A stretch of DNA of 64,000 nucleotides from Liolophura sinensis (lineage: Eukaryota > Mollusca > Polyplacophora > Chitonida > Chitonidae): positions 41,756,458 to 41,820,457 of the forward strand of contig NC_088300.1 of the NCBI RefSeq assembly GCF_032854445.1, in the 5' to 3' direction. The stretch's first letter is position 1; each line of letters begins with the position of its first letter. Of the stretch, positions 1,188 to 24,841 are shown piece after piece. The notes under the pieces are model-generated. The model was not told where the DNA came from, did no database searches, and saw only the letters and a list, made by a program, of their open reading frames with translations. The translations under genes were made by a program, and so were the position numbers.

Positions 1188-1734
1188 AGATAGATGTGAG
1201 TAACTTCGTCCCTGAGACCGTCACCTTGTCGCAGGTACAGACAACAGAGTTTCAGTTTCGAGGCAGCGGTTTTCTAACCAGAGACAACATCAACTGTGTC
1301 TTTTCAGGTGAGCCTTTTATAAAGCATATTACTCGAGTCTTTATCAAACTGCCGAAGGGCAAAACTCGTTCTGAAAATCTATATCACAGTGAAATTGTTT
1401 AAATTTCAATGTTTTATTACTAATTTGGAGATTGGAGGGTTTTTTAGCTGTTTTTCATAGCCAAAAAATGTATCTTTGGGAGTAACCATTCCTCGTATGT
1501 TTGCAACAGGCAGTTGTTTCTCAGAGAAAGAATCGGAAGTTGTGACCGTGGCTGAGATTCGGTCCGACTCTCTGTTGACTTGTGTCCTCGACACACCCTC
1601 TGCGTCCTGTCACCTGTCAGTGTCCTTGTCAGCTGGTAGGAGGGGAATCGCCCTAAATGAGGCTCTAAGCCACGCCTACAACAGCACGGTGTACGCCCCG
1701 GCACCAAAACCTACCATAAGATTTTCTAATACAG
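1188..1734 (+). other. TIG/IPT-like domain, copy 1 (2 exons)
   Basis: Two exons (1188-1307, 1510-1734) encode about 115 residues. They run from EIDVSNFVPETVTL through FRGSGF and NCVFS to IRSDSLLTCVLD and a closing VYAPAPKPTIRFS. The order of a Pro-containing opening strand, a Gly-Phe turn, a first Cys, then I-x-S-D-x-x-L-T-C resembles TIG/IPT folds. The assignment is by pattern only. Copy 2 has the same features at 10058-10824. Confidence 0.5.
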
Positions 1735-22800: not shown

Positions 22801-24841
22801 TCCATTCTCCGGATCAGATTCACTCGGCTATTCCCGGATCTCCGGCATTGTCGATATTCAGCTGCGTAATCCACACACAGGTACTTTTCTTATTACGGTA
22901 TGACTATACTTTGCTAAAGAACTATCAGGTAACTATTTTAACATTTTCCTATTCCATGATAAATGAGAATTACAATGTCTCGTAAGATTTATTTATTTTA
23001 ATGTTGTTTAACGCCATACACCAAATGTTTTTGACTTATAATACGATGACGATCGGTTTTATGGGTGGAGCTATAGGAAATCGTGGTTTCCGGAGTGAAC
23101 CACAGACCTGATATATTATTGAAGAACTTCCCTCTTGTGACACACGATATTAGTGAATGGTCTTCTCGTAAGATGTATTAAAACGCTACATGTTTCATTT
23201 CCTTTCCATTTAGTGTGGTAAGATTTTGACTGTGGTAGGAATACAATAAAGCATTTATTGCTATGTGTACTTTAAATAAAACGAGCGAAATTGTCAGTCT
23301 CTGGAAGTAAGATAACTTCTCTCCTTCACCTTTCCCAAATGCTTATCTGTTAAACTACATATGGAGATGAAAGGGCGTAAGTGTTTTTTTTTCTGATCAA
23401 GCTAAAATGAAAGACAAAGCTATAACGGCTCCCAAGCTTTCTCAAGTGTAAGGAGATTAACACAGATAAGATATAGGGCGAATTCACTTACGAATCTGTA
23501 AAAGTTCATAAGAAAAATTGAATACCTTTTCAGAAGACCAATTTATTATTGTTGTGTTTAAAAGAAGAAAAAATGTAAGACGTTTTCAGTTTTTGCTTCA
23601 CGAAAATTACGGGCAAAAACATAGCCAATTGGATATTACTTGTTAACCAGGATCAGTTCAAGATGTGAAGAATCTCGATGAACCCGTCGTGATGAGATTT
23701 CCTATGAAGTCACGTGTCCAGTCTGAGGTGACGTGTCGTTACTGGACTGGCTCAGTTTGGTCCGATGTCGGAGTGAAAACGTCACAGACAGACGACTCGA
23801 TCGTCCAGTGCTCGTCCTCTCACCTCACAGCCTTTGCCGTGTTTGAAAACCAGCTTTCTGTCACATCAGGTAAGGCGTGTGAGAAATACTATTCCAATTT
23901 CGAGCTCCAGCTGTCATTTTATTTATTAAAGCATTATAATTGAAGAATATTTGAAATCCATCAACTTGGGCATTAAGGAAAGACTAAGCTGAAAAAGTGT
24001 TACCTAAATCCTTGTATATTTTGTAATACATGTGCAACAAATTCTCGCCTTTCATCTTTCGCTGGCGCTAACAAACAATCAAAGGTAAATATATATTCTG
24101 CCGTTGTCCCAGAGTACAACGTTATTGAGTATGATGGATTTTCTAATTTCAGGGAATGGATCTCTTTCAGTGTTTGATACTGTTGACGGTAACTAATTAC
24201 ACATATTGTCAGAATATTTCGGCTGTGCCTAATATTGCATTTTTCATAAAAAAAATCACTTGTCTATGAGGAATTTTATTATACATTTACAGTTATGTCA
24301 AATCGTATCTTGCAATTATTAGTCCACTGTTGTTATCCGCGGCACGACTAAAAGTCTACACCATGTCCGTCAGTTTGTCAGTCTGTCTGTTTACCAAACG
24401 CGTTGTTGTTATCAAATGTAACTTGGTGCATGGCTTCATGACAAGTTAGAGGTCAAGGAAGCTTGTGCTTTGGAAGTAGTTTACTTGAATCAAGGTTAAG
24501 TTCCTTGCCTTTCACCTGCATGGAGAGTAAAACCAGAGCGAGAACGACAGTTGTTGAACGTAAGCGGTGATATCCAACGTATTGCCAATTTACGTTAGTA
24601 TTTTATTCTAATACATCCATAATGCTTGTTTTAATTGTTATTTACAGTGTCTCATGATGAGCCCTCTGAATTTCTTGTGGGTGTGATGATTGGCACTGTC
24701 CTCGGAGTTCTTGTAGTCAGTGTAGTTATCGCCCTTACTCTGCGGTATTCCAGACTGAAGGCTCTCAAGGTGGACGTTCTGGATAAAGCGCCCATTACAG
24801 GGGCCAAACAGTTGGATTTACTCATTTCCAAAGAGGCTTAG
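10058..24841 (+). CDS. REJ/polycystin-1-like receptor, ectodomain module copy 2 plus transmembrane C-terminus (20 exons)
   Basis: Continues the same reading frame (phase 1 to phase 1) after module copy 1. Exons: 10058-10192, 10594-10824, 11657-11827, 11951-12199, 12379-12574, 13016-13164, 13324-13440, 14546-14661, 14820-15029, 15155-15275, 16457-16546, 19121-19272, 19891-20073, 21148-21277, 21716-21942, 22115-22407, 22720-22880, 23651-23869, 24153-24188, 24648-24841. Exons 3-18 match copy 1 in length exactly; the first two are 15 and 6 nt longer. The joined exons of both modules give about 2169 residues in this window. The last exon encodes one hydrophobic helix and a 32-residue cytoplasmic tail, then TAG. 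There is no PLAT domain and no 11-helix or channel region, unlike polycystin-1, so the layout resembles single-pass sea urchin REJ proteins, but with the REJ-GPS block doubled. The 15030 donor is GC, not GT. N-glycosylation sequons (for example NNT, NQT, NRT) support an extracellular location. Confidence 0.87.
11210..11300 (-). mobile_element. Possible SINE-C fragment
   Basis: GGTGGAAACCGGGGAGTCCT and AGTAAACCGCAGACAGTGTG resemble the middle of the third repeat family (compare GTGGTTTCCGGAGTGAACCA near 23083). Short and weak. Confidence 0.35.
13659..14237 (+). repeat. Intronic minisatellite, 63-bp unit, nine copies
   Basis: Units start at 13659, 13722, 13785, 13848, 13911, 13974, 14037, 14100 and 14163, followed by a partial unit at 14226; copies are almost identical. 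It lies in the intron between exons 13324-13440 and 14546-14661. The unit is 21 codons and open in one frame ([20 protein letters not shown] then S), so it produces a long but probably meaningless open frame. Each unit carries a GTGAGT donor-like word. Confidence 0.95.
15324..15783. mobile_element. Foldback/MITE element, about 460 bp
   Basis: The left end AAAGGCAAAGAAAGCACTAA ... GATGAAAGACCATTAA is the imperfect reverse complement of the right end TTAGTAGTCTTTCATCTGAT ... TTTTCTTTGCTTTT. Complementarity continues inward (CAGTGACGTC near 15490 against GACGTCACTG near 15612). No ORF is visible. It sits in an intron of module copy 2 and has no counterpart in copy 1, so it inserted after the duplication. 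Confidence 0.75.
16766..16983 (-). mobile_element. SINE-A copy, diverged
   Basis: Tail-first on +: TTTGTTTATTTGATATGTGC, CTCAAGAATATTTCACGTAT, CGGCCAGCATTATGGTGGGG, ACCACGACCATCCGCATGTT, and a decayed tRNA-like head ending CATGGAGGTCCCC. It lies in the long intron 16547-19120 of module copy 2. Confidence 0.75.
16984..19120. other. Repeat-rich intronic stretch, no exon seen
   Basis: The intron between exons 16457-16546 and 19121-19272 is 2574 nt; the same intron in copy 1 is 575 nt even with a SINE. This part holds a 120-bp AT tract and phrases such as GTGGGGCAAAACGGAC (17050), GTCCGTTTGGCCACAT (17229) and CCGGTTTGCCCAAATT (18795), possibly ends of an unrecognised repeat. No coding sequence is supported. 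Confidence 0.5.
17792..17911. repeat. (AT)n microsatellite, about 120 bp
   Basis: Uninterrupted AT dinucleotides for about 120 bp. It gives meaningless IYIY frames on both strands. Its true length is unreliable in any assembly. Confidence 0.97.
19284..19420 (-). mobile_element. SINE-B 3' fragment
   Basis: GAATGCTTGGGGTTTAACGT, ACTTAACAATTTTTCAGTCA and TATGACG are the reverse complement of the tail shared with 31130-31190 and 62936-63000. It starts 12 nt after the donor of exon 19121-19272. The inner boundary is approximate. Confidence 0.65.
20328..20523 (+). mobile_element. SINE-A copy, 5' truncated
   Basis: GTGAGTTCAAATCCTGCTCA (B-box region), CCATACGTGGGAAG, GGATGGTGGTGGGCCTCC, CCGTCCTATAAGTGAAATAT, TTGAGTACGGCGTAAATCAT, ending in an AATAAATAAATAAAT tail. 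Lies in an intron of module copy 2. Confidence 0.85.
21283..21430 (-). mobile_element. SINE-C (third short repeat family) copy
   Basis: GTGTTGTTAAACGCCATACT, TTATACGATGACGGTCAGTT, GGCAAGTTACTGACGAA and CCCCACGTGTGATGT recur in the same order, with divergence, at 22985-23160 and 34915-35170, and in reverse at 31348-31490. Confidence 0.6.
22985..23160 (-). mobile_element. SINE-C copy
   Basis: TTAATGTTGTTTAACGCCAT, ATACGATGACGATCGGTTTT and AACTTCCCTCTTGTGACAC share order with 21283-21430. It lies in the intron between the last two GAIN exons of module copy 2. Confidence 0.55.
23651..23869 (+). other. GPS autoproteolysis motif, copy 2
   Basis: Same exon length (219 nt) and phase as copy 1. It encodes [15 protein letters not shown] and [14 protein letters not shown], keeping HLT. 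Only about 50 codons follow, including the transmembrane helix. Cleavage here would leave a short membrane stub non-covalently holding a very large ectodomain. The donor (GTAAGG) is stronger than that of copy 1. Confidence 0.8.
24648..24841 (+). other. Terminal exon: single transmembrane helix and short tail
   Basis: After acceptor TTTACAG the exon reads VSHDEPSE, then [20 protein letters not shown] with ALTL (about 24 hydrophobic residues), RYSRLK as a positive stop-transfer, and a tail ending LISKEA before TAG. The GxxxG-like MIGTVLG spacing could allow helix packing. A 36-nt exon (24153-24188, [12 protein letters not shown], with an NGS sequon) lies just before it as a juxtamembrane linker. 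Confidence 0.85.

Follow-up and report, generated by a model that had tools for sequence, protein, structure and literature searches.

Gene structure and extent

The 64,000-base stretch of Liolophura sinensis DNA analysed here, called the window (C6:41756458-41820457 in a genome assembly of 609 Mb and 632 contigs), holds most of a gene for a predicted single-pass receptor with two successive modules, A and B, each carrying a REJ domain and a GPS motif. The gene reads as a single multi-exon unit on the forward strand from 1188 to 24841, and its 5′ end lies outside the window (Table 1). When splice sites were read directly, the frame joined from 1188 gave 2169 residues with a sole, terminal stop at 24841. 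Eighteen exons belong to module A, 18 to module B and two follow. The sequence-only reading had put the gene at 1188-24841, which holds for the part inside the window and not for the gene as a whole, whose first coding exon is further upstream. In full, 39 coding exons are predicted, which add up to 7308 bases including the stop and encode 2435 residues. All introns but one are GT-AG (37 of 38), the remaining one having a GC donor at exon 9 of module B (15029).

The layout is asymmetric, with a leader before module A only and a membrane helix after module B only. In the predicted protein the HLT triplets of the two GPS motifs fall at residues 1294-1296 and 2344-2346 and the helix starts at 2381. 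Within the window part of the protein, hydropathy is highest at the C-terminal helix (2.8 over 19 residues). Each module also has a lesser peak of about 2.0, which lies within its REJ match and is read as an ectodomain strand. The joined frame and the hydropathy profile thus agree with the earlier proposal of one transmembrane helix and a short tail after the modules, the cytoplasmic tail being predicted at about 32-36 residues.

Table 1. Positions of the coding exons and associated features (window coordinates unless a segment is named)
Feature	Position	Strand	Basis or remark
First coding exon, 266 codons	L009:6415-7213 = -3585 to -2787 (last base of L009 = 0)	+	~3.6 kb upstream
Module A, 18 coding exons	1188-9697	+	blastn, splice sites; Pfam REJ 169.3, GPS 26.6 bits; enters and leaves in phase 1
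Module A exons 1-9	1188-1307 (start possibly 1161), 1510-1734, 1971-2141, 3344-3592, 3782-3977, 4367-4515, 4663-4779, 5115-5230, 5383-5592	+	
Module A exons 10-18	5749-5869, 6162-6251, 6827-6978, 7287-7469, 7650-7779, 7909-8135, 8294-8586, 8781-8941, 9479-9697	+	
Module A GPS exon, CRYW...VQCLSSHLTAF	9479-9697	+	Pfam
Intron between modules A and B, 360 bases	9698-10057	+	
Module B, 18 coding exons	10058-23869	+	blastn, splice sites; Pfam REJ 157.9, GPS 25.8 bits
Module B exons 1-9	10058-10192, 10594-10824, 11657-11827, 11951-12199, 12379-12574, 13016-13164, 13324-13440, 14546-14661, 14820-15029 (GC donor)	+	
Module B exons 10-18	15155-15275, 16457-16546, 19121-19272, 19891-20073, 21148-21277, 21716-21942, 22115-22407, 22720-22880, 23651-23869	+	
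Module B GPS exon, starts CRYW	23651-23869	+	Pfam; 72 residues
Linker exon, 36 bases, phase 1 to phase 1	24153-24188	+	
Last coding exon: predicted transmembrane helix, short tail, stop	24648-24841	+	hydropathy
Candidate poly(A) signal AATAAA	25624-25629	+	motif match only; ~780 bases past the stop

The predicted first coding exon is marked by a TATA-like sequence and by an ATG that an in-frame stop precedes. It encodes MRNMGILVRILFLFCLHGIVLS, a Ser/Thr-rich stretch and a Cys-containing segment. Its start is signal-peptide-like, signal peptide and helix both being judged from sequence and hydropathy, and its donor is good (10.2) and in phase 1, matching the phase in which module A is entered. 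A Pfam scan of this exon gave no family above cut-off, the only match being PDR_CDR at an E-value (E) of 0.1. No third module was found by tblastn (E up to 1) in 41,187 bases upstream, that is, 40 kb and the first 1187 bases of the window.

Domain content

A Pfam search placed REJ (PF02010, cut-off 25 bits) and GPS (PF01825, cut-off 22.5 bits) in both modules, with both GPS matches upstream of the sole helix. Nothing besides REJ and GPS rose above the Pfam cut-offs in either module, PLAT and PKD included, and the first 115-117 residues of each module had no Pfam match even at E up to 10. In both GPS copies there is HLT, a single Cys pair and, before the conserved Trp, a Tyr (CRYW, at the place of CVFW in ADGRF1), an aromatic residue at the position that orients the catalytic histidine; this position was set by the Cys and Trp labels of a published comparison (PMC11697300). 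The GPS exons of the two modules are 76% identical, and the Pfam matches together with the positions of the triplets confirm that a GPS with HLT closes each module. When the 72-residue GPS exon of module B was modelled with AlphaFold2, with module A as the only other row of the alignment, five strands were predicted at a mean predicted local distance difference test score of 70.7. Five strands are also described for the GPS of GAIN structures (PMC4810088).

Two copies of an 18-exon block

When 1-9999 was compared by blastn against 10000-25000, the matches formed collinear blocks of exon size, 70-93% identical. Apart from one 37-base piece, a dispersed repeat and TA runs, the introns did not align. 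All intron phases agree and 16 of 18 exon pairs are equal in length, just as the sequence-only reading had reported. The unequal pairs are exon 1 (120 vs 135 bases, A vs B) and exon 2 (225 vs 231). An in-frame acceptor at 10073 would equalise the first pair, but it scores -1.7 against 8.7 for 10058. Over 1030 aligned codons amino-acid identity is 75.1%, and of the 23 Cys in module A, 22 have a Cys counterpart in module B. Chance is excluded as the origin of this likeness. Synonymous divergence (dS) is 0.44 and nonsynonymous divergence (dN) 0.15, a ratio of ~0.34, with no frameshifts and no stops, and because of these values the sequences indicate purifying selection on both copies.

Of 379 fourfold sites, 111 differ between the modules, a figure that also bears on whether the duplication could be an assembly artefact, for example two haplotypes set in tandem. 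The heterozygosity of the sequenced animal, 1.24% (PMC11068029), provides material for such an error, but the fourfold differences and the barely alignable introns are far above allelic divergence, and the assembly was built from HiFi reads with purge_dups (PMC11068029). We regard an artefact as extremely improbable.

Divergence is unevenly spread, the fourfold fraction per exon running from 0.05 in exon 17 to 0.67 in exons 1 and 2. The chi-square for this unevenness (51.9) was reached in none of 5000 shuffles, and the longest identical run was marginal (p 0.043). The 40-base flanks of some low-divergence exons are also similar between modules (0.62 upstream of exon 12, 0.60 upstream of exon 17, 0.65 downstream of exon 11), compared with 0.45 at the 99th percentile of random intron pairs, a control that is lenient in that it was taken from intron interiors, whereas flanks share splice-site letters. 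Other such flanks lack this similarity; downstream of exon 17 it is 0.33. The simplest reading of these sequences is probably an old duplication followed by patchy conversion between exons, and locally stronger constraint could produce uneven divergence in its place.

Several smaller features were recorded alongside. The 37-base piece precedes exon 12 in both modules with 84% identity, by 8-44 bases in module B and by 475-511 bases in module A (window 6316-6815), a difference that an insertion into a conserved intron end could explain. The start of module B (10058-10075) and the start of the transmembrane exon (24648-24660) both encode V-S-H, which may be a trace of the duplication junction or chance. 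A module B intron holds a near-perfect 63-base minisatellite of nine copies (13657-14230). Dispersed repeats occupy introns at 10228-10392, 2613-2755, 16764-16911 and 20329-20524; of 40 scored genome-wide matches to the first, 37 were at other places, and the other three repeats recur upstream of the gene.

One gene or two

A layout of this kind could also represent two adjacent single-module genes, and tandem gene duplication is a common source of such layouts. In that case module A should end, or module B begin, as a gene of its own. The 360-base interval between them (9698-10057) gave no match to the tail exons at E up to 50; it holds no Met in a frame running into the first exon of module B, no AATAAA and no ATTAAA, and together with that exon it holds no signal-like start, against a background of 1.2-1.6 per kb, although in so short an interval the absence of motifs is by itself weak evidence. 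A signal peptide, a stop with a tail exon or a poly(A) signal in the interval had been named beforehand as what would speak for two genes, and the search for them in the sequence was negative. Since module A lacks its own tail exon, module B lacks a leader and the leader exon lies upstream of module A, the sequence makes two separate genes unlikely, and we give this alternative only a very small probability. The open frame, the upstream leader and the lack of gene ends in the interval instead support the earlier proposal of one gene for a single-pass protein with two REJ-GPS modules in series, which would be transcribed as one mRNA.

A different arrangement, in which the modules are alternative cassettes and most mRNAs carry one of them, draws on the same splice sites. 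All module borders are in phase 1, so that skipping module A (exon 1 to the first exon of B) or module B (exon 18 of A to the linker exon) would keep the frame, and the acceptor of the first module B exon (7.3) outscores that of the first module A exon (3.0). Each skip, however, would pass over 18 consecutive exons, and the sites joining the modules are within the range of the gene, with leave-one-out scores of 6.1 for donor 9697 (ninth weakest of 38) and 7.3 for acceptor 10058. We consider predominantly single-module mRNAs improbable, less so than two genes.

Relationship to known REJ and GPS proteins

From its sequence the predicted protein is a member of the PKD1/REJ family, with a layout closest to the sea urchin proteins SpREJ1, SpREJ8 and SpREJ9. 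These have one predicted helix, a REJ domain (partial in SpREJ8 and SpREJ9) and a GPS upstream of the helix (PMC1934368), and the SpREJ1-like features, namely signal peptide, REJ, GPS and one helix, are all present in the chiton prediction. The SpREJ1 gene has 20 exons over ~25 kb (PMC1934368), compared with 1 + 18 + 2 per single module in the chiton gene. SpREJ1 differs in having C-type lectin and EGF domains (PMC1934368), neither of which was given by the Pfam scan of chiton exon 1. In the portion of that source consulted, no SpREJ protein is described with two REJ-GPS blocks, and the two REJ sections of SpREJ7 are one split domain (PMC1934368).

Proteins of the polycystin-1 (PC1/PKD1) type share the order REJ then GPS, one disulfide and the HLT triplet (PMC4810088). 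PC1 has 11 helices and PLAT (PMC1934368), whereas the chiton protein has one predicted helix and no PLAT or PKD match; an 11-helix polycystin-1 type was ruled out, as there is no PLAT and the single C-terminal helix is followed by a stop. Adhesion G protein-coupled receptors (GPCRs) likewise have a GPS at the base of a large ectodomain, and searches of the PDB gave weak similarity to the GPS of ADGRF1 (E 0.25 and 0.16). The chiton protein differs from them in its two serial GPS motifs, in having no GAIN profile match and in having no seven-transmembrane (7TM) region, and the stop codon after one helix rules out an adhesion GPCR.

Single-pass REJ-GPS receptors are already known, and the novelty lies in a complete REJ-GPS block being duplicated in series. 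No description of such a duplication was found in a literature search that was limited and blunt and does not establish absence from print; the one relevant paper it brought up concerns two GPS mutants (PMC5548486), and the examined text of PMC13197933, PMC12716839 and PMC11697300 mentions no double or multiple GAIN units.

REJ family in the genome and neighbouring sequence

The chiton has a sizeable predicted REJ family, since 18 REJ matches occur at 10 loci on C1, C6, C8 and C10, with loci lying in pairs at 3.76 and 3.79 Mb on C1 and at 11.08 and 11.17 Mb on C10. In a limited set of searches, no closer relative of the module was found elsewhere in the genome. At C1:22297928-22304791 there is a REJ gene with few interruptions, in which a stop-free stretch of 1776 codons on the minus strand (22299464-22304791) covers one REJ match, the next falling in a separate frame of 260 codons. 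A figure of 2288 open codons reported for this locus was not borne out by its DNA.

Downstream of the receptor gene, an apparent second multi-exon gene extends over 30199-54000 of the window on the forward strand. Ten of its open frames gave no Pfam match above cut-off, and the exon peptides suggest that its product may be an Urb2-like nucleolar protein. Long adjacent minisatellites lie at 41023-43602 (39 copies of a 29-base and 43 copies of a 31-base unit), and GC skew is -0.21 over 40001-44000. Upstream, on the same strand as the receptor gene, candidate class A GPCR-like exons were judged by eye at about -33864 to -33572 (L012; helices 1-2) and -10828 to -10587 (L010; helices 3-4).

Proposed receptor and its possible cleavage

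Taken together, we find it likely that one gene encodes one type-I protein of ~2435 residues with two REJ-GPS modules that arose by an internal 18-exon duplication. The protein would run from a signal peptide through a ~244-residue N-terminal segment without a recognised family to module A, module B, a short linker, the helix and the tail. The gene most likely derives from that of a single-module, single-pass REJ receptor, through an internal tandem duplication of an 18-exon block with phase-1 bounds. Purifying selection has since maintained both copies, some exons probably exchanging sequence through conversion.

For the protein itself we propose that each REJ-GAIN unit would fold in the endoplasmic reticulum and that self-cleavage would occur at HL|T in module B at least, the pieces being held together by the last GAIN strand until a ligand or a pulling force frees the outer piece or pieces. 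The GPS of PC1, with one disulfide, is cut at HL|T (PMC4810088), for which the complete REJ region is required (PMC3677617). Tyr at the aromatic position is compatible with cleavage in cells expressing ADGRL1 (PMC13062082). Because each chiton module has HLT, a PC1-type Cys pair, an aromatic residue and its own REJ, both GPS copies are plausibly cleavable. In our judgement cleavage of at least module B is likely, while cleavage at both modules is a tentative proposal, somewhat short of even odds. The same caution applies to its consequence, two autonomously cleaving REJ-GAIN units in series, which would make a three-piece, stepwise-sheddable single-pass receptor with GAIN self-cleavage 1,085 residues from any helix.

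A number of points weigh against this picture. The GAIN profile was unmatched in both modules at E up to 1, and the last 232 residues of module A gave only GPS at E up to 10. Of the earlier label REJ-GAIN-GPS, REJ and GPS therefore stand, above cut-off in both modules; since no GAIN profile matched, GAIN is something we infer from the GPS and from family membership. GAIN domains have low sequence conservation, and those of PKD1 are treated as an extended topology (PMC11697300). Comparison of the modelled module B GPS exon with known folds gave generic sandwiches only. The acceptor linking exon 1 with module A, at 1188, is weak (leave-one-out score tied for second lowest of 38), an in-frame alternative at 1161 that adds nine codons is nearly equal (4.1 vs 4.7 for 1188), and the nucleotide match between modules starts at 1173, so the exact start of the first module A exon is uncertain. 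The gene is described here from genomic sequence, and claims at transcript or protein level are predictions.

The remaining points concern cleavage. The purified ectodomain of the ADGRL1 Tyr variant cleaves slowly, with a half-life of days, and a Gly-Cys conserved in GPS-active adhesion GPCRs (PMC13062082) is Gly-Val here. ADGRB2 with HLS is almost uncleaved, so the triplet alone is insufficient (PMC13062082), and in ADGRE2 cleavage is promoted by tethering through the first helix and by a growing 7TM scaffold (PMC12488864), whereas the module A site, so far from the helix, would be without membrane tethering. The observations on ADGRE2 and ADGRB2 also favour a two-piece receptor, cleaved only at the membrane-proximal GPS of module B and with module A as an uncleaved extension of the ectodomain. 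The GPS of module A nevertheless retains HLT, the Cys pair, Tyr and Trp in an exon closely resembling that of module B, and we hold the two-piece form to be rather unlikely, though the most credible of the alternatives.

The predicted output of the one-gene, two-module protein is a sheddable recognition or adhesion receptor, since there is no 7TM or channel part to take a tethered agonist. By analogy with SpREJ1, which binds the fucose sulfate polymer of egg jelly on sea urchin sperm (PMC1934368), it is possibly found on gametes and may have a role there.

The gene brings a chiton into the group of single-pass REJ receptors that has been characterised in sea urchin, and adds a case of an 18-exon cassette duplicated inside a gene, in which uneven divergence suggests exchange between the copies. 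GPS cleavage depends on REJ in PC1 and on tethering in one adhesion GPCR, and a receptor with two similar REJ-GPS units, one beside the membrane and the other distant from it, would make it possible to tell these dependences apart in one molecule. It could thereby help to show whether GPS cutting must adjoin the membrane.

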